64,000 nucleotides of DNA from Hyphomicrobium sp. (GTDB taxonomy: Bacteria > Pseudomonadota > Alphaproteobacteria > Rhizobiales > Hyphomicrobiaceae). The number at the start of each line of letters is the position of its first letter. The stretch's first letter is position 1. The stretch spans positions 1-64,000 of the forward strand of contig JASBSU010000022.1 in the NCBI GenBank assembly GCA_030148725.1, written 5' to 3'. The notes beneath the pieces are model-generated. The model worked only from the letters and a program-made list of their open reading frames with translations. It ran no database searches and was not told the DNA's origin. Both the position numbers and the translations under genes were made by a program. This document shows, piece by piece, positions 44,389-52,915 of the stretch.

Positions 44389-45096
44389 TCAGCGGGTCAC
44401 GAAGCGGAAGGGGACCTGCATCTCCAGCGATCCGCCGGAAACCTCGCCGGGCAGAGGCGGGAAGGGTGCCGACCGGTCGAGCGAGGCCAGGGCGGCGTCG
44501 TCGAGCAACTTCGACCCGGAACTTTGCAGCACGGTGCGGGAAAGAATTTCGCCGCGCTTATCGACCGTGAAGCCGAGGACGACGGTGCCGGTCTGCGTGG
44601 AACGCGGGTTGACCTTGTTGCGGTGCAGCTTCTTGGCGATTTCGCCCATGTAGGCGCGACGCGCTGTAACGTCGCCGCCCGATAGCTTGGAGCCGACGTT
44701 CTGCTGTTCGGCAGCAACCATCGGTGCCACTTCCTGCATCGTTACCGGCTGCGGCTTCTCTTCTTCGATCGGCTTCGCCTCGACGATTTCGACAGGAGCC
44801 TCGGTCGTCGCTTCAGACGAGGTGATCAGGTCCTTGAGTTCCGGCTCCTTCGTCTCGACGGGGTCGGCGGCAGTCATCTGCTGAACCGGTGCGATATCGA
44901 CCGCTTCCACGACTTCCTCGGCTCCGCCGAGCATGGCCGAACCGTCGAGCTGGATCGTCATCTCGTTGCTGAAGGCGTCGCCACCTGAGCCGTCATCGAA
45001 GGCCGTCAATGCTGGCTCCGACGTGATGAATGCCGTCGCGAGTGCGGCATGAACCGCAATCGAGGCAAGCACGGCGATCGGACGAAGAACCTGCAT
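44389..45096 (-). CDS. tonB: TonB family protein
   Basis: A 235-residue energy transducer. The N-terminal helix (VLRPIAVLASIAVHAALATAF, residues 3-23) has the SxxxH-type pattern that contacts ExbB-ExbD. A periplasmic acidic/Pro linker (EAKPIEEEKPQPV) replaces the classic EP-KP repeat. The C-terminal domain ends with the TonB core (IAKKLHRNKVNPRSTQTGTVVLGFTVDKRGEI...). It lies 11 bp after exbD and closes a secreted protein-exbB-exbD-tonB operon facing away from two TonB-dependent receptors. Confidence 0.9.
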   Translation of the reverse strand: MQVLRPIAVLASIAVHAALATAFITSEPALTAFDDGSGGDAFSNEMTIQLDGSAMLGGAEEVVEAVDIAPVQQMTAADPVETKEPELKDLITSSEATTEAPVEIVEAKPIEEEKPQPVTMQEVAPMVAAEQQNVGSKLSGGDVTARRAYMGEIAKKLHRNKVNPRSTQTGTVVLGFTVDKRGEILSRTVLQSSGSKLLDDAALASLDRSAPFPPLPGEVSGGSLEMQVPFRFVTR

Positions 45097-45107
45097 GGCG
45101 TTGGTAG

Positions 45108-45566
45108 CTAGCGATTGGCCGGCGGCGGTGAGCCGGGTTGTGCCTTGGCGAGAAGGGAGACACGGGCATATCCGCTCTCGCCGACGAGCGTGAGGATGTC
45201 CATGACATCGCCGTACGCTGATTTCGTGTCGCCCCGCACGTAGACTACGGCGTCGCCCTCGGCGGCGCGGATGTCGCGCAGGCGCGGCACCAATGTGCCC
45301 CGATCCACGAACTCGTCTCGGATCTGAAGCCGTCCGTCCTGAGTGAGCGTCACGACCATCGGCTTCTTGGATTGGCCAACGCGCGGCGCGGTGGTCTTCG
45401 GCAACTCGACAGGCACGCCGGCGACCATCAGCGGTGCGGCGACCATGAAGATGATGAGCAGCACCAGCATGACGTCGACCATCGGCGTGATGTTGATCTC
45501 GGCCATAGGCCGGTACGTCGCGCCGTCTTCGTCGTCGCCTGCCGGAAGATTTACCGATGCGCCCAT
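45108..45566 (-). CDS. exbD: ExbD/TolR-family biopolymer transporter
   Basis: A 152-residue protein with a short cytoplasmic start, one membrane helix (about residues 29-48) bearing the proton-path aspartate in INITPMVDVMLVLLIIFMV, and a periplasmic domain (VDRGTLVPRLRDIRA...VYVRGDTKSAYGDVMDI). Its ATG shares one base with the exbB stop (TGATG). With ExbB it uses the proton motive force to energise TonB. A TolR role is less likely given the adjacent tonB and no tolA/pal. Confidence 0.92.
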   Translation of the reverse strand: MGASVNLPAGDDEDGATYRPMAEINITPMVDVMLVLLIIFMVAAPLMVAGVPVELPKTTAPRVGQSKKPMVVTLTQDGRLQIRDEFVDRGTLVPRLRDIRAAEGDAVVYVRGDTKSAYGDVMDILTLVGESGYARVSLLAKAQPGSPPPANR

Positions 45567-46264
45567 CAGATGCTCTTCCCTGCGCGCATCGGGACAACGG
45601 TTTCGGAGGTCGGACGGGACATGATCTTGGCGATGGCCGTCAGCGCGTTGCCGGCGCGGGCTGCGAGGCGGCCAAGCGAAACGGAGACGGCGTTATAGGC
45701 CATGACCGCTGGAATGGCGGCAGCGAGGCCAAGGGCTGTTGCCAGGAGAGCCTCGGCGATGCCCGGGGCGACCGTGGCGAGGCTGGTGTCCTGCGCCATG
45801 CCGATGGCGGTGAAGCTGTTCATGATGCCCCAAACGGTGCCGAACAAGCCGATGAAGGGCGCGGCCGAACCAATGGTGGCGAGGAACGGCAGGCCGGCTT
45901 CCTGCCGCTGCAGCTCGCTCTTCAATGTGGTGCGCATCGCTCGCTCGATGCGGCTGCGGACCGCGCTGCGATCTTCGCCGCGCGACGCACCATCGACGAG
46001 TTCCTCTTCGCCAGAGCTGAGAAGCTTTCCGACCAAGCCGCGCTCGCTGCCGCTCGCCGTTCCGCTTTGCGCGACACGGTCCAGGCGGCGGATCTGACCG
46101 CGCAGCCATGATAGGCGGATCAGTTTTTCGAAGATGATGGCCCAGCAGGCTACCGAGGCGAGCACCAACCCGATCATCACGCTTTTGACGATCGGGTCTG
46201 CCTGCATGAACATGCCGTAGAACGAGTAGTCCGGCGCGCCCGCCGCGGCAGTCAGCAATGTCAC
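45566..46264 (-). CDS. exbB: ExbB/TolQ-family proton channel protein
   Basis: A 232-residue membrane protein with three helices (about residues 26-48, 131-152, 172-194) and the MotA/TolQ/ExbB core TIGSAAPFIGLFGTVWGIMNSF and GIAEALLATALGLAAAIPAVMAYN. The start is GTG 46264 with AAGGG upstream. A 10-bp gap separates it from the secreted protein gene upstream. It forms the pentameric channel around ExbD. Confidence 0.92.
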   Translation of the reverse strand: MTLLTAAAGAPDYSFYGMFMQADPIVKSVMIGLVLASVACWAIIFEKLIRLSWLRGQIRRLDRVAQSGTASGSERGLVGKLLSSGEEELVDGASRGEDRSAVRSRIERAMRTTLKSELQRQEAGLPFLATIGSAAPFIGLFGTVWGIMNSFTAIGMAQDTSLATVAPGIAEALLATALGLAAAIPAVMAYNAVSVSLGRLAARAGNALTAIAKIMSRPTSETVVPMRAGKSI

Positions 46265-46274
46265 TTTCGTACCC

Positions 46275-46712
46275 TTACTTCGAAATTTCGACCTTGGTCA
46301 GCGACTTCACTTTGAGGCGCGCGAGACAGTCCTGCGCCGGGGCGCCGTCGGCCCGGCATTCCATCACGTCGTTGACGAGGAACTTGCCAATGTTCTCGCA
46401 GTCCGTGCCATCGAGCTCGAAGAGCTTCACAGTGCTCTTGTCGGGCCGCACGGGCGCGAGATCGAGAGCGAACCGGCGCCCGATGATCCCGTCCGTCTGG
46501 AAGAGTACGAGATCGAGTTTGTAAGCATCGTAAGATGTTTGCGTTGGATTGCTCACAACCACGTAAGCGCGGCAGCCCTTCTCAGACTTCTCGAGCTTGT
46601 TGAGTTCGAGGGATACGGTCGGGGTATCCTGCGCTTTAACGAACGTCGTCAAAGTCGCGGTTGCCATCACGGCAGCTGCAAGCCGAGCAATTTTGGAGGT
46701 CATCGATGTCAT
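46275..46712 (-). CDS. Secreted uncharacterised protein leading the exbBD-tonB operon
   Basis: A 145-residue protein with a Sec signal peptide (MTSMTSKIARLAAAVMATATLTTFVKA). The mature part has four or so cysteines (GCRAY, DGTDCEN, VMECRAD, QDCLAR) and beta-type sequence (AYKLDLVLFQTDGIIGRRF). I do not know its family name, although proteins of this kind preceding exbB are familiar in Hyphomicrobiales. Start chosen at M29 of a longer ORF; M32 (46703) is equally possible. Only 10 bp from exbB, so it is very probably part of the same periplasmic uptake function. Confidence 0.7.
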   Translation of the reverse strand: MTSMTSKIARLAAAVMATATLTTFVKAQDTPTVSLELNKLEKSEKGCRAYVVVSNPTQTSYDAYKLDLVLFQTDGIIGRRFALDLAPVRPDKSTVKLFELDGTDCENIGKFLVNDVMECRADGAPAQDCLARLKVKSLTKVEISK

Positions 46713-47051
46713 CGGGCGTAACCAGTCCTGTTGATACGAGTGCATCGGACGCACGGTATAGGGTCCGCCTTTGTCAATGACTTGGCGTGGCATCATTCGT
46801 TGCCTGCAGAAATGGGCGTGCGTCGGTCGTTCTCGTGTCCTGGCTACGGTGTATAGAGCTTTCGCATTTCGTCCTTCTCCCCTCGGCCAATCGCTTGTCG
46901 TGTGCGTTCGGCTCTTTTTCTCGGCTTCACCAGGCCTGATTGACCACTTCCTCCAACCAGGGGATGGGTCATCTTCCCTATGTGTGCCGTTAAGTGAGGT
47001 AACACCGGCTGGATGACGCCTGTCAAACGCGGAAAATCGGGCACCTTGAGG

Positions 47052-47088
47052 CGGGAATTATTCCCGACATAGTCGGGAATTATTCCCG
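47052..47088. promoter_or_regulatory. Tandem perfect palindromes, probable operator
   Basis: Two identical 15-bp palindromes CGGGAATTATTCCCG at 47052-47066 and 47074-47088. Each is a 7-bp inverted repeat around a single central T, and their centres are 22 bp apart, about two helical turns, so two protein dimers could bind the same DNA face. It lies 255 bp before TonB receptor 1. A one-copy variant occurs before receptor 2. I cannot name the regulator. Confidence 0.75.
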
Positions 47089-47146: not shown

Positions 47147-47342
47147 CTTGACCGCGTGTACTGCCTCGATCTTCTCTACCTCAGTTAATTACGTCCGCTT
47201 TCAAAAAATATCCCGAGCAACGGGAAACTTTGGAAGTCGGGGAAGGCCGGAATGAACCCGCGAACCGTGGCAGTTCGCATCGAAGGTTCAGCCGGAATGT
47301 CGGTGAGTTCGTCACCTCGCGTACGTCTGGGGGAGTTGAGTA

Positions 47343-49835
47343 ATGCGTTCTGCGTCTGCGTTCACGTCCGTATTGTGTCTTGTTCTTGGTTCCGCACCAG
47401 CCTTCGCGCAGGATGCTGCTGGAACCGCTCCGCCGCCCGCCACCGGCGGCGCTGTCGAGACGCTTCCCGAAGTGGAAGTCGTGCAGCAAACGCCGAGCCA
47501 AAAAGCGGCACGGGCGAAGAAAAAGGCTCCGGCCGTATCCCCCCTCAGCAGCGTGGGGACAGGCACGCCGGGCACGGCGCCGCAAAATGCCGCCGCTCAA
47601 GCAGCATCAGCCGCCATTTCCGCCGCCCCGCCCATTACTGTTCCGAGCGCAGTGACCAACGTCACCGATTCCGACATCGAGGCGGAAGGCACCGGCTCCA
47701 TCCAGCAGACGCTGCAGCAGAAAGTTCCAGGCATCATCATTTCCGACGCGGCAGGCAATCCGCTGCGCGCCGAGCTTTCGTTCCGCGGCTTCGATGCCTC
47801 GCCCGTCAGCGGCCGGGCCCAGGGCCTTGCCGTCTACCAGAACGGCGTGCGCATCAACGAAGCGTTCGGCGACGTCGTCAACTGGGACGTGCTGCCGAGC
47901 AATGCCATTTCGTCGATGTCGGTCGTCAGCAACAATCCGTCGTTCGGATTGAACGCTCTCGGCGGCGCCGTCAGCATCGCGATGAAGGACGGTTTCAATT
48001 ACCAGGGCGGCGAGCTGGACGTGATGTTCGGGTCGTTCGGTCGCCGGCAGGTCGGCGTCCAAGCCGGTGGCGCGAGCGGGAACGCTGCGTTCTATGTTGC
48101 GGCGGAGGGCATTCAGGAGGATAGCTTCCGCAACTACTCGGACAGCGAGATCAAGCGCTTCTATGGCGATCTCGGCCTCAAGGGCAGCTTCACCGAGGTG
48201 CACTTCAACCTGACGGCAGCCAGCAATCATTTCGGTGCCACGGCGGCTGCGCCGGTCGAGCTGCTCGCAGACGATTGGGCCAACACCTTCACATCGCCTC
48301 AGACGACGGATCTTGAAGTCTTCATGCCGTCGATCTCTGCGTCGGTGAAGGCGACGGATACGCTGACCTTCTCCGGCGTTGGCTACTATCGCCGATTTAA
48401 GAATCGGGTCGTCGACGGCAACTTGACGGAAGCGGACGAGTGTGACGCGGACGACGATTTCCTCTGCCTTGATGAAGGCGAGGGCGATCCGCTCCTTTAC
48501 AACAGCGGGCCTAACGCAGGGCAGCCGATCAACGTTGAGGATCTGGGCCTTGAGGAGCCGTTCGGCTCGATCGAGCGGTTGGCGACCACGAGCAGCAGCT
48601 GGGGCGGCGTCATCGAGGCGCAGGAAAAGGCCAGGCTGTTCGGAATGCGCAATTTGTTCCTCGCCGGCGTTTCCTACGATCACGGCACTTCCAACTACAA
48701 GACGTCAAGCGAACTCGGGACCATCCAGCCGGGATATGTGGTGGACGGAACTGGGATCATTGTCACTGACGACGACTTTGAGACCGCTCCGCGGAACCTC
48801 GACGCCGAGAATACCTACTGGGGCGTCTACTTCTCTGACGCACTCGATCTGACAGACCGGCTCACGGTCACGGTTGGCGGTCGCTACAATTTCGCTCGCA
48901 TCAAGCTGACTGATAACACCGGTCTGTTTGACGGGCTCAACGCGACCAACACGTATGAACGCTTCAACCCGATGGTCGGTGCCAATTACAAGCTATCGCG
49001 AGAGGTATCGGTCTACGGCGGCTACTCCGAGTCCAATCGTGCGCCGACGCCGGCCGAGCTTGGTTGCTCCGAAGAAGACAATCCCTGCCTTATCGAGAGC
49101 TTCCTGACCGACGACCCGCCGCTGAACCAGGTCGTCGGGCGTACGGGAGAAATCGGTCTGCGTGGCCAGGGCGTATGGAACGGAGGCCTTTACACCTGGG
49201 GTGCAGGCCTGTTCCGGACGCTGGCGTCCGACGACATCCTGCCGGTCACCCTTACGTCGGGAGGCGCATCGCGGATCTTCTTCAAGAATGCTGGCGACAC
49301 TCTGCGCCAGGGTGTGGAGCTTTCGGGTACGTATGAGACGCGCCGCTGGAGCGTGTACGGATCGTACGCCTTCGTCGACGCCACCCTCGACAAGTGCACC
49401 GATCCCGGAGAAGACGGCTTGTGCGCGTTTCTCGGAGACGGCGATCGCTTGCCCGGCGTTCCGCGTCACCGCTTCAAGGCCGGCTTCGACTACGCTCTGA
49501 CCAAGAAGTGGAAGTTTGGTGCGGATCTCGTTGCGGCAAGCAACTCTCCGTTGTTCCCGAACGAGGCGAAAGAGGACGCGGACGAGGACGGCATTTCGTC
49601 CATGCTCGGCGGCTACACTCGCGTCGATCTGCACACCTCGTATGACGTTACGCAGAACGTTCAGGTCTATGGCCTCGTCAAGAACCTGTTCGATCGCAGA
49701 TACGGCCTCTATGGGACGTACTTCGAGGAGCCGGATGAGGTTCCTGTGTTCGGCCGGCCGCCGCTGAGCGATCCGCGCACCATCTCGCCGGCCATGCCGT
49801 TCGCAGCCTACGGTGGCGTCAAGATCAAGTACTGA
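47343..49835 (+). CDS. TonB-dependent receptor 1
   Basis: An 830-residue outer-membrane receptor. Signal peptide to residue 22 (APAFA-Q), a TonB-box-like LPEVEVVQ (41-48), then an unusual basic Ala/Lys/Pro linker up to about 105, the plug (SFRGFDASPVSG, RINEAFGDVVNWD, GLNALGGAVSIAMKDG) and a beta-barrel ending AAYGGVKIKY. Three putative surface loops hold acidic cysteine pairs: Cys367/375, Cys575/582 and Cys685/694. GGGGGAG precedes the ATG. Substrate unknown: the acidic loops suggest a metal or metal chelate. It lies opposite exbBD-tonB and is followed by a terminator and a paralogue. Confidence 0.9.
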   Translation: MRSASAFTSVLCLVLGSAPAFAQDAAGTAPPPATGGAVETLPEVEVVQQTPSQKAARAKKKAPAVSPLSSVGTGTPGTAPQNAAAQAASAAISAAPPITVPSAVTNVTDSDIEAEGTGSIQQTLQQKVPGIIISDAAGNPLRAELSFRGFDASPVSGRAQGLAVYQNGVRINEAFGDVVNWDVLPSNAISSMSVVSNNPSFGLNALGGAVSIAMKDGFNYQGGELDVMFGSFGRRQVGVQAGGASGNAAFYVAAEGIQEDSFRNYSDSEIKRFYGDLGLKGSFTEVHFNLTAASNHFGATAAAPVELLADDWANTFTSPQTTDLEVFMPSISASVKATDTLTFSGVGYYRRFKNRVVDGNLTEADECDADDDFLCLDEGEGDPLLYNSGPNAGQPINVEDLGLEEPFGSIERLATTSSSWGGVIEAQEKARLFGMRNLFLAGVSYDHGTSNYKTSSELGTIQPGYVVDGTGIIVTDDDFETAPRNLDAENTYWGVYFSDALDLTDRLTVTVGGRYNFARIKLTDNTGLFDGLNATNTYERFNPMVGANYKLSREVSVYGGYSESNRAPTPAELGCSEEDNPCLIESFLTDDPPLNQVVGRTGEIGLRGQGVWNGGLYTWGAGLFRTLASDDILPVTLTSGGASRIFFKNAGDTLRQGVELSGTYETRRWSVYGSYAFVDATLDKCTDPGEDGLCAFLGDGDRLPGVPRHRFKAGFDYALTKKWKFGADLVAASNSPLFPNEAKEDADEDGISSMLGGYTRVDLHTSYDVTQNVQVYGLVKNLFDRRYGLYGTYFEEPDEVPVFGRPPLSDPRTISPAMPFAAYGGVKIKY

Positions 49836-49940: not shown

Positions 49941-50007
49941 GCAACCTGTGCAACACGTGTGAGTTGCTCGCGCGCAACTTTTGCAACGCGATACACAGTT
50001 GCGTTGC
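49941..50007. repeat. Cluster of seven GCAAC/GTTGC half-sites
   Basis: GCAAC at 49941, 49950, 49974 and 49983 and GTTGC at 49963, 49998 and 50003. Two direct pairs have the same 9-bp period (GCAAC-N4-GCAAC), and one pair is inverted (GTTGC-N6-GCAAC). The density in 67 bp is far above chance for a pentamer, so a regulator may bind here. It lies about 190-250 bp before receptor 2. Confidence 0.5.
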
Positions 50008-50092
50008 CGCGACGCGCTTGACGCAGCCAGCTGCCAACCACCCAATTATTTTCGCTTCCACGTTGAGTCGTGCTGGAAGACAAGGGGAAAAA

Positions 50093-50107
50093 TGGGAATT
50101 TTTCCCG
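50093..50107. promoter_or_regulatory. Single variant of the receptor palindrome
   Basis: TGGGAATTTTTCCCG matches 13 of 15 bases of the tandem operator before receptor 1. It lies 85 bp before the receptor 2 ATG and sits within a longer GGGAAAAAT/ATTTTTCCC inverted repeat (50085-50106). Shared control of the two receptors is the simplest reading. Confidence 0.6.
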
Positions 50108-50191: not shown

Positions 50192-52915
50192 ATGGACGGA
50201 CGGGGATTGAAGCGGTTGGCGCGGGCAGCCGGAGTAACGGCCTTGCTTGTCGTCCCATCGGTAGCGCAGCAGCCGTCACCTGCCCCACAGGTCCCACAGT
50301 CCCCGCCACCAGCCGCTTCGCCGGCTCCGGCCGCGCCGGCACCGAATGCCAATACGCCTGCTGCTGCCCCCGGCGCGGCAGGACAGACGGCGCCAGCCGC
50401 TCAAGCTCCGACACCGGCGCCAGCCGCCAACCAGCTGCCGCCGGTCGACATCATCCAGAAGAAGGCCGAGCCGGCACCAAAGGCAGCCGCCAAGAAGCAG
50501 GCTCCAAAGAAGCAGGCCGTTTCGCCCCCGCCGGTTGCTCCCGCTGCCGCGACGCCGCCCCCGACGAGCACCGCGACGCCGACCTCGGCGCCAATGCTCG
50601 ACACCCCCACGACCTATCAGCCCGGTGAGGGCGGCATCGACAGCGGCACGGTGATGATGTCGCCGGTCGAAGGCAGCGCGATCCCGATCGGCAAGTTCCC
50701 TGGCGGGGTGGGCCGTGCCAGCGACGCGGACATCGCGCGCACCGGCTACACGTATGTGCCTGAGGTACTGCAGCAGACGGTGCCCGGCGTCATTCTCGAG
50801 GACGCGCAGGGCAATGTGTTCCAGCGCAACCTGCAGTTCCGCGGCTATGAATCTTCGCCGGTCAACGGTGTGCCGCAGGGTCTCGCCGTTTATCAGAACG
50901 GCGTACGCATCAACGAGTCGTTCGGCGATATCGTCAACTACGACTTCCTGCCGGACAACGCCATCAGCGGCATGACGATCATCGGTGCCAACCCGGTGTT
51001 CGGCCTCAACGCTCTCGGTGGCGCGCTGACGATCATGATGCGCGACGGCTTCAACTACCAGGGCGCCGAACTCAACATCATGGGCGGCTCGTTCGGTCGC
51101 TATCAGGGTGGCCTCGCCGTCGGTGGAAACAGCGGGTCGTGGGGCGGGTTCATGGCCCTCGAAGGCATCCACGACAATGGCTATCGCGACTTCTCGGCGT
51201 CGCGCATCCGTCGCATGTACGCCGACATCGGCGCCAAAGGTGACGGCTCTGAGTTCCATTTGAACTTCACCGGCGCCGCGAACTACGTGGGTGTCACGGC
51301 AGCCGCACCGGTACAGCTTCTCGACCTCAGCTGGAGCAATACCTTCACGTCGCCGCAGACGACAAAGAACCAAGTGGCGATGATCTCGGCCAATGGCCAG
51401 ATCGAAGTATCGCCCACGTGGTCATTGCAGGGCGTCGGCTATTACCGCTGGTTCAAGCAGTCGCACATCGACGGCAACATCTCCGAGGCCGAGGATTGCG
51501 GCGGAGCCGATGCTGGCCTGCTGTGTCTTGAAGGCGAGGTTGCTGAAGGTGTGGGCCCCGGCGTCAATCCGGATGGCACCATTCCATCCGACATCGCCGA
51601 TCCGCTCGGCTCGCTCGATCAGACGTCGCAGCTGACGAACAGCTTCGGCTTCGCAGGCCAGGCGGTCAACAAGGACTACCTGTTCGGCTACAAGAACCAG
51701 TTCCTGATCGGCGCAAGCTACGACCAGGGCAACGTTGCCTACGGCGCGACGTCGACGCTCGGTTCGTTTGCCCCGCAGTTCGTGGTCAACAGCCTCGGCA
51801 TTCTGCTCACCGAGCCGGACGATGTGTCGCCGCGCGATCTCTCGACGACGAATAACTACGTCGGCCTTTATTTCTCGGATACGGTCGACCTGACGAGCGA
51901 ACTCGCCCTCACCGTCGGTGGCCGCTATAACTTCGCGCGGGTGATCATCGAGGACAATTCCGGCAATGCGCCGGAGCTCAACGGCAACAACTCGTTTCAG
52001 CGCTTCAACCCGATGGTGGGCGGCACCTACCTGCTGCATCCCGGCCTGACGCTCTTTGCAAGCTACGCGGAAGCCAACCGCGCGCCGACGCCGGCGGAGC
52101 TCGCCTGCGCCGATCCGAACTTCCCGTGCTTGCTGGAAAGCTTCCTCACCGCCGATCCGCCGCTCGAGCAGGTCGTCTCGCACACGTGGGAGCTTGGTCT
52201 GCGCGGTAACATGCAGGGCCACACCAACGAGCGGTTCGAGTGGTCGGCCGGTCTGTTCCGGGCGCTCAACAGCAACGACATCTACACGGTCGCGGCGCCC
52301 ATCACCGGCCGCGGTTACTTTGACAACATCGGCGATACGCTGCGGCAGGGCATCGAAATCGGCGGCCGGTATACCGACCCGCGCTGGATGATCTACGCGA
52401 ACTACGCGCTGGTGCACGCCACCTTCCAGTCGAGCTTCATTTTGCCGTCGCCGAACAACCCTGTGGCCTTCGAGTGCGGCGAGGATGATGGTGAGGAGCT
52501 GACCTGCGTGCAGGTCAACTCGGGCGATCGCATCCCAGGCATTCCGCTCAGCCGCTTCAAGGCAGGCTTCGACTACCTCATCACGCCGCAGTGGCGGTTC
52601 GGTGCGGATCTCGTTGCTGCCTCGAGCCAGATCTTCTTCGGAGACGAGGGTAACGATACGGCGCCGCTCGGCGGGTATGCCAAGGTCGACCTGCACACCT
52701 ACTACGACCTGACCGAGAACGTGCAGCTCTACGGCTTGGTCTACAACCTCTTCAACTCGCACTACGGCCTGTTCGGCAACTACTTCAATCTGGAAGCTGC
52801 GAACGAGGCGTCGGAAGCCAACCCGGCGACGGGCGACAACTTCTTCACCAACCCGCGTACGATCACGCCGGCTCCGCCGCTGGTCGCGTACGGCGGTGTG
52901 AAGTTCCACTACTAA
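50192..52915 (+). CDS. TonB-dependent receptor 2, paralogue of receptor 1
   Basis: A 907-residue receptor. Signal peptide to about residue 25, then a 55-residue Pro/Ala run, a TonB-box-like LPPVDIIQ (82-89), a Lys/Ala linker (KKAEPAPKAAAKKQAPKKQ) and another Pro/Thr stretch. The plug (FRGYESSPVNG, RINESFGDIVNYD, GLNALGGALTIMMRDG) and barrel parallel receptor 1 along the whole length. Its loop cysteine pairs fall at matching places: Cys436/445, Cys639/646 and Cys762/772. The barrel ends VAYGGVKFHY. The longer Pro-rich N-terminus is the main difference. No ABC importer or siderophore gene accompanies the pair. Confidence 0.9.
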   Translation: MDGRGLKRLARAAGVTALLVVPSVAQQPSPAPQVPQSPPPAASPAPAAPAPNANTPAAAPGAAGQTAPAAQAPTPAPAANQLPPVDIIQKKAEPAPKAAAKKQAPKKQAVSPPPVAPAAATPPPTSTATPTSAPMLDTPTTYQPGEGGIDSGTVMMSPVEGSAIPIGKFPGGVGRASDADIARTGYTYVPEVLQQTVPGVILEDAQGNVFQRNLQFRGYESSPVNGVPQGLAVYQNGVRINESFGDIVNYDFLPDNAISGMTIIGANPVFGLNALGGALTIMMRDGFNYQGAELNIMGGSFGRYQGGLAVGGNSGSWGGFMALEGIHDNGYRDFSASRIRRMYADIGAKGDGSEFHLNFTGAANYVGVTAAAPVQLLDLSWSNTFTSPQTTKNQVAMISANGQIEVSPTWSLQGVGYYRWFKQSHIDGNISEAEDCGGADAGLLCLEGEVAEGVGPGVNPDGTIPSDIADPLGSLDQTSQLTNSFGFAGQAVNKDYLFGYKNQFLIGASYDQGNVAYGATSTLGSFAPQFVVNSLGILLTEPDDVSPRDLSTTNNYVGLYFSDTVDLTSELALTVGGRYNFARVIIEDNSGNAPELNGNNSFQRFNPMVGGTYLLHPGLTLFASYAEANRAPTPAELACADPNFPCLLESFLTADPPLEQVVSHTWELGLRGNMQGHTNERFEWSAGLFRALNSNDIYTVAAPITGRGYFDNIGDTLRQGIEIGGRYTDPRWMIYANYALVHATFQSSFILPSPNNPVAFECGEDDGEELTCVQVNSGDRIPGIPLSRFKAGFDYLITPQWRFGADLVAASSQIFFGDEGNDTAPLGGYAKVDLHTYYDLTENVQLYGLVYNLFNSHYGLFGNYFNLEAANEASEANPATGDNFFTNPRTITPAPPLVAYGGVKFHY

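Follow-up and report, generated by a model that had tools for sequence, protein, structure and literature searches.

The first of two TonB-dependent receptor genes in a 64,000-nucleotide stretch of Hyphomicrobium sp. DNA (the window, by which we mean the whole stretch analysed) is preceded by two identical palindromes. The question that this raises is whether they form an operator and, if so, which genes it governs and which protein reads it. The relevant features of the window were as follows.

44389-45597, minus strand: TonB (C-terminal domain at ORF residues 314-397)
45108-45566, minus strand: probable ExbD, 152 aa (position and like-sized ORFs in relatives; no Pfam search)
45566-46264, minus strand: ExbB, MotA/TolQ/ExbB family (Pfam)
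46275-46796, minus strand: P173, an exported protein of unknown family (no Pfam match; homologues equally placed in relatives)
47052-47066, no strand: putative operator copy 1 (distal), CGGGAATTATTCCCG (sequence match)
47074-47088, no strand: putative operator copy 2 (proximal), same sequence as copy 1 (sequence match)
47148-47153, plus strand: TTGACC, possible -35 element (fixed distance from the proximal operator)
47343-49835, plus strand: TonB-dependent receptor 1 (Rec1, 830 aa; Plug and barrel domains)
50085-50106, no strand: inverted repeat GGGAAAAAT-4-ATTTTTCCC, overlapping the receptor 2 operator
50093-50107, no strand: putative operator before receptor 2, TGGGAATTTTTCCCG (sequence match)
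50192-52915, plus strand: TonB-dependent receptor 2 (Rec2, 907 aa)

Genes were called with a simple script (ORFs by codon-position GC). Starts and small genes are thus approximate; the TonB ORF probably has its true start further in, and some sites fell within P173 ORFs as called, at the 5′-end. P173 is the first gene of a divergent exbB-exbD-tonB operon and shares a common operator region with Rec1. The P173 family typically heads an exbB-exbD-tonB operon divergent from a receptor. Rec2 was 50% identical to Rec1 across the aligned part, and comparison of the receptor with PDB sequences gave no match at 0.001. Rec1 is LutH-like by context; its relatives adjoin lanmodulin genes in other genomes, and a direct comparison with the LutH of Methylorubrum extorquens AM1 was not part of the basis for this description.

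The presence of two copies of CGGGAATTATTCCCG before receptor 1, claimed in the first-pass annotation, was confirmed at 47052-47066 and 47074-47088. Each copy is a 7-1-7 palindrome, the centre-to-centre distance is 22 bp, and the module between 47053 and 47087 matched with 0 mismatches in a tandem-module scan. The variant that the same annotation placed before receptor 2 was also present, at 50093-50107, although TGGGAATTTTTCCCG proved to be an imperfect palindrome with 2 differences from the 15-mer. Fourteen perfect 7-1-7 palindromes were found in the window, so a single one is unremarkable. A scan of the window found two exact 15-mer repeats spaced by no more than 100 bp, and the CGGGAATTATTCCCG pair is one of them. 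Allowing 3 mismatches, the window held 6 matches on both strands against a mean of 1.74, and 3 of 100 shuffles reached 6; by itself this result was only modestly above chance. At genome scale, scattering of the 15-mer would have counted against an operator. The core GGGAATNATTCCC was not scattered: exactly 3 copies occurred in the 3.84 Mb of the window's own genome (G000), namely the receptor 1 pair and a site at C60:399 before a lanmodulin gene. A stretch upstream of receptor 2 (49941-49990) contained GCAAC/GTTGC-type repeats, some of them inverted, which may be a second regulatory element.

The distance to a possible core promoter was also conserved. TTGACC started 59 bp past the proximal operator in all four Rec1 promoters of this type (G000, G003, G006, which is of the same genus as G000, and G032), and TTGAYC lay at a fixed distance after the proximal operator in 9 of 11 Rec1 promoters (59 bp in four, 63-64 bp in five). 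If TTGAYC is the -35 box, the operator centre would be near -100, which by inference suits an activator. A simple scan called no sigma-70 promoter, leaving TTGACC as a -35 element unconfirmed by that scan. The motif-positive genome G032 gave no RR1-like match (RR1 is the response regulator described below) at 1e-25. Its Hyphomicrobium-like receptor, 75% identical, sits on a 9.4 kb contig (C62), and mis-binning or transfer is possible.

The palindromes are instances of a conserved motif with the consensus CGGGAAWWWTTCCCG. Receptor promoters were compared using one receptor per genome; 57 of the 62 receptor-positive genomes in the order were included, the excluded ones (G031, G240, G267, G345 and G400) being partial or not fetched. 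The motif was present with ≤2 mismatches in 28 of the 57, 19 of them exact, against a mean of 0.6 and a maximum of 3 in 20 Markov simulations, so orthologous promoters do carry it, as an operator should. Motif-positive promoters were concentrated in two families, f1 (11/14) and f35 (14/14), with 3/29 in all others. All 11 receptor promoters from named Bradyrhizobium and Tardiphaga carried the motif with ≤1 mismatch. The exact sequence CGGGAAWNWTTCCCG occurred 54 times, spread over 42 of the 103 genomes of the family, whereas the reversed control gave 3 sites. By manual count 34 of the 54 were linked to plausible targets: 21 to receptor/P173, 3 to XoxF/SoxYZ, 1 to RR1, 5 to RR3-type (kinase/regulator) operons and 4 to two families of exported proteins. 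The remaining 20 were unlinked, several of them inside genes. Order-wide, 54 of 397 genomes had the exact site. Outside f1 and f35 this held for 27 genomes versus 13 with a control site (manual count), which is not far above background.

The 22-bp spacing recurred beyond the window. It was analysed in 35 sites picked by hand from proposed-target promoters, with near-duplicates removed and the window's own pair included. The mean matrix score over these sites peaked at offsets +22 and -22 among all offsets beyond 12 bp, and at ≤4 mismatches a second copy stood at -22 in 7 of the 35, where the per-offset mean was 0.29. Loosening the cut-off to 6 mismatches made offset -23 score as often as 22. 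A CGGGAA half-site lay exactly 22 bp on in 11/11 of the named Bradyrhizobium/Tardiphaga promoters. The tandem 22-bp module as a whole was found at 29 sites in 21 of the 103 family genomes and at none for the reversed control. Twenty-one of these sites were at receptor/P173 (receptor/exb), lanM, XoxF or HK/RR genes; the other 8 were at an RND pump operon (2), a small exported protein (2), a more distant TonB receptor (1) or unresolved or unrelated genes (3). The perfect 15-mer alone was rejected as the unit, orthologous sites varying mainly in the A/T centre. The inference that one operator is common to both receptor promoters is well supported by the orthologous promoters in two families, the recurrent 22-bp phasing and the low controls, and the case for reading the palindromes as operator sites is strong.

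Two groups of tandem or related sites touched genes of uncharacterised function. In two genera the tandem operator preceded an RND efflux gene (ACR_tran) at L351:2163-2197 (G087) and L344:1501-1535 (G109), with an intervening gene of ~345 aa that is lipoprotein-like by eye and has no Pfam; the pump is a candidate lanthanide exporter. At L121, L123, L147, L348 and L350 the operator was upstream of a small exported protein family (GCEGGKWEKETEGTGVFELDDAKCKDG...), without Pfam for those searched, which lay beside a TypA-like GTPase gene (by eye) in four of the five loci. The GCEGGKWEKETEGTGVFELDDAKCKDG family is possibly metal-binding.

Further sites in the window's own genome extended the list of candidate targets. 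At C60 the site is 106 bp ahead of a gene whose 130-aa product has four DPDNDGT-type EF-hand loops and gave lanmodulin as its best PDB match (E 2e-41). Contig C38, which carries mxaF (methanol oxidation), has CGGGAAAAATTCCCT at C38:4593, flanked by two divergent genes, one for HK1, a histidine kinase, and the other for RR1, a response regulator of the NarL/LuxR type. At C38:14550, CGGGAAAAACTCCCG precedes a SoxYZ-like carrier. Two-mismatch sites preceded an unknown exported protein (C38:29885) and a DUF3617 protein (C38:30551). Between xoxF and a SoxYZ gene there is a one-mismatch site (C27:37310), at a distance of 0.55 kb upstream of xoxF, and the corresponding xoxF/SoxYZ regions of G003 and G005 also had a one-mismatch site. 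XoxF sites were found in G068, G070, G011 and G034 as well; flanking dehydrogenases were checked as XoxF by WDYDG/WDFDG where MxaF has WDYAG. The one-mismatch sites at C16, C2, C27:61475 and C42 showed no link to lanthanide-type target genes, and the C16 site, which contains TATAAT, may be due to chance.

Lanmodulin sites were found in G000, G084, G085, G082 and G332. Among 30 lanmodulin promoters (the loci returned for 52 matches), 3 had a site with ≤1 mismatch (2/6 in the family and 1/24 outside), and a universal lanmodulin operator was rejected since 27 of the 30 lacked one at this threshold. G000 encodes three lanmodulin-like proteins (C60:504, C27:170174 and C2:188937); the operator was read only in the C60 promoter, and a one-mismatch site lies ~2 kb before the C2 copy. 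The unknown exported family on C38 (L065:10040-10471) has a 2-mismatch site plus an ATTCCCG half-site upstream, with spacing as before lanmodulin, and its homologues adjoin lanmodulin in G082, G085 and G089. The first-pass annotation could match the palindrome to no Fur, Irr, RirA or Zur box. It named neither a regulator nor a metal. The motif-sharing genes (lanmodulin, XoxF and HK/RR) point towards lanthanides and a NarL-type response regulator rather than towards the iron, zinc and manganese boxes that it considered. Assignment to a lanthanide regulon is well supported by these genes, in so far as gene content alone can support it.

RR1 has a receiver and a LuxR HTH (Response_reg 3.6e-24, GerE 2.5e-11), and HK1, encoded adjacent to and divergent from it, combines HisKA_3, HAMP and HATPase_c domains. 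When the HK1 sensor region was modelled with AlphaFold (mean pLDDT 73), nothing in the PDB matched the model at E ≤0.001. All 4 annotated Bradyrhizobium/Tardiphaga loci (L047, L051, L053 and L057) were arranged as RR1, HK1, operator, receptor, the site overlapping the 3′-end of the HK1 ORF in L051 and L053, and a MAG locus (L055) had the order HK1, operator, receptor. In G332, lanM, receptor, operator, HK1 and RR1 followed one another in a single stretch. The operator lay between RR1 and LanM in G082 and G084, and a tandem operator separated HK1 from RR1 in G028. RR1 (E 1e-48) was detected in 23 of 397 genomes; by manual count 19 of these 23 had the exact site, compared with 35 of the 374 others. 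Likewise, 19 of 21 receptor promoters in RR1-positive genomes had the motif, compared with 9 of 36 in RR1-negative ones. This association is confounded by phylogeny. For those 9 of the 28 motif-positive promoters a close RR1 (E 1e-48) was absent (e.g. G106, G107, G025, G123 and G029), so a sister regulator may serve in such genera, and two RR1-positive genomes (G016 and G089) had no motif upstream of the tested receptor. G000 also encodes a second RR1/HK1 pair on C55 (L324), beside another TonB receptor; the 6 kb read there had no site with ≤1 mismatch. Because NarL-type regulators recur beside the sites, and RR3 operons do too, a NarL-type reader is likely, with RR1 the best candidate and RR3 not excluded.

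RR3, a MoxX-like sister response regulator, is a competitor to RR1 as the reader: the operator and regulon would be unchanged, and RR1 would be involved only in some lineages. The RR3 type has a YKTVAN-type helix and a kinase with a LapD/MoxY-type sensor, and the recognition helices of both types start [SA]YKTV or [SA]YKTI. Within genus g10, five genomes (G082, G083, G087, G089 and G090) have the exact operator ahead of RR3-type HK or HK/RR genes, the G082 kinase having a LapD_MoxY_N domain, and G086 has the tandem version at RR3-type genes. The LanM site in G085 follows an RR3-type gene, and G107 (genus g21), without a close RR1, has RR3-type regulators. Against this, it is RR1/HK1 that adjoins the site in G332 and in the annotated Bradyrhizobium/Tardiphaga loci, and NarL-type relatives are found at comparable identity in genomes lacking the exact site; we regard this reading as unlikely, though one to be kept in mind. 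A metalloregulator of the Fur family, sensing a lanthanide or other metal in the cytoplasm, is the main alternative class of reader. Palindromes of 7-1-7 geometry, as here, suit Fur-family dimers, and the window's own genome encodes 4 Fur-family proteins. Their genes (contigs C5, C40 and C2) are not by any listed site, however, and by eye, with no family search, the proteins look like Fur/Mur, Irr and two Zur-like regulators. GGGAAT/ATTCCC is presumably unlike the Fur, Irr and Zur boxes, and the regulators found repeatedly beside sites are NarL-type. The repression of lutH by La3+ in M. extorquens AM1, as described in the available part of that report, does follow a Fur-like logic (PMC7391723), and even so a Fur-family reader appears improbable.

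The signal, rather than the reader, is at issue if the regulon serves methanol, PQQ-alcohol or formaldehyde oxidation, with lanthanide genes as passengers and an alcohol, formaldehyde or the redox state as the cue, a signal of the FlhR/MoxX-like kind. Sites on the mxa/xox contig and at SoxYZ-like genes would fit, as would the operator between the receptor and a divergent PQQ dehydrogenase in two Bradyrhizobium-like genomes of f35 (G346 and G427). The commonest targets are nevertheless TonB receptors with exbBD-tonB, and lanmodulin recurs, which are transport and storage genes. The mxaF surroundings in the window's own genome had no site with ≤3 mismatches. This reading is not favoured, and we give it the same weight as RR3. 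Least of all can the palindromes be ascribed to a dispersed intergenic repeat, a transcription terminator or chance. In favour of such an origin, perfect 7-1-7 palindromes are abundant in the window, copy 2 drew a terminator-like call and part of the exact family sites are unlinked. Against it, promoter position and phasing were kept across genera; an intergenic repeat or terminator was rejected on the three exact core sites in the genome and the tandem count of 29 versus 0 for the control, and this explanation is largely refuted.

The palindromes are thus probably operator sites of a lanthanide uptake and use regulon read by a NarL-type response regulator, for which RR1, with its kinase HK1, is the leading candidate. 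Sequence comparison establishes the motif together with its phasing and conservation, and also which genes share it. A lanthanide as the signal, RR1 as the binder and activation as the sign are inferred, in the absence of binding or expression data. Sites of the form CGGGAAWWWTTCCCG, frequently doubled or accompanied by a half-site at the 22-bp spacing, are found before the lanthanide-type receptors and the divergent exbBD-tonB operon; at other loci they precede lanmodulin, XoxF-associated genes and an HK/RR pair. On the preferred reading, HK1 would respond to lanthanide supply, directly or indirectly. Phosphorylated RR1 dimers may then occupy the palindromes cooperatively, on the same face of the DNA and some two helical turns from each other, and binding upstream of the core promoter would set transcription of receptor, storage and methanol-oxidation genes. 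We propose more tentatively, as a possibility that falls short of being probable, that HK1 and RR1 form a two-component system devoted to the lanthanide response and reading an operator code of its own, the tandem CGGGAAWWWTTCCCG at 22-bp spacing. Throughout Hyphomicrobiaceae and Bradyrhizobium, lanthanide receptors, the TonB energiser, lanmodulin and XoxF would come under its joint control, along with, in some genera, novel small exported proteins and the RND pump that is a candidate exporter of lanthanides.

Bacterial lanthanide sensing and uptake control remain an open question. A 2024 review, in the part available, describes the exact mechanism of the PedE/PedH switch as still unknown (PMC11845868), and the accessible portion of a study of lanM in M. 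aquaticum calls for the identification of two-component ligands and target genes (PMC9260416). A defined operator leads to simple promoter and binding assays. It predicts regulon members in Hyphomicrobium and Bradyrhizobium, flags unstudied proteins that possibly handle lanthanides and, if the signal is confirmed, could be used as a rare-earth biosensor part. No description of CGGGAAWWWTTCCCG as an operator was found in the literature searched, and the only matches to motif strings were two Acinetobacter plasmid papers; coverage was partial, and absence from print is not proven.

The nearest known box by form is that of the dormancy regulator DosR/DevR, TTSGGGACTWWAGTCCCSAA. Like the operator described here it is a GGGA...TCCC palindrome, and its reader is a NarL-family response regulator, as is inferred for the present site; it differs in having an even centre and a GGGACT half-site. 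The DosR helix, which we take to be KTVKN, compares with KTVAVICA in RR1, and the two HTH regions gave a weak sequence match (alignment not shown).

By function, the comparison is with lanthanide-linked systems. A lanthanide-type TonB receptor gene is under lanthanide control in M. extorquens AM1, where the lutH promoter was 4-fold repressed by La3+; as far as the available part of that report goes, the regulator and DNA site were not identified there (PMC7391723). A LutH-like receptor was likewise down under two lanthanide treatments in Methylosinus, according to the part of that study available (PMC12482762). The methanol dehydrogenase switch regulators MxbDM, MxcQE and MxaY/MxaB resemble, by analogy only, the role proposed for HK1/RR1 in exerting two-component control of lanthanide-linked methylotrophy, in so far as the sources available in part describe them. 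The M. aquaticum lanM promoter depends on MxcQE; the difference is that no operator is reported for MxcQE and related switch regulators in the available portion of that source (PMC9260416). The main text of a study of PedS2/PedR2 of Pseudomonas putida (PMC6115532) contains no wording on a binding site, binding motif or palindrome, and none is reported in the accessible part of PMC12997753. In that system, as is proposed here, a membrane kinase and a LuxR-type response regulator act on lanthanide-use genes; the targets of PedS2/PedR2 in the text available are pedE and pedH (PMC6115532), whereas the main ones proposed here are a TonB receptor, exbBD-tonB and lanmodulin, and the palindrome through which they would be controlled is tandem and defined.
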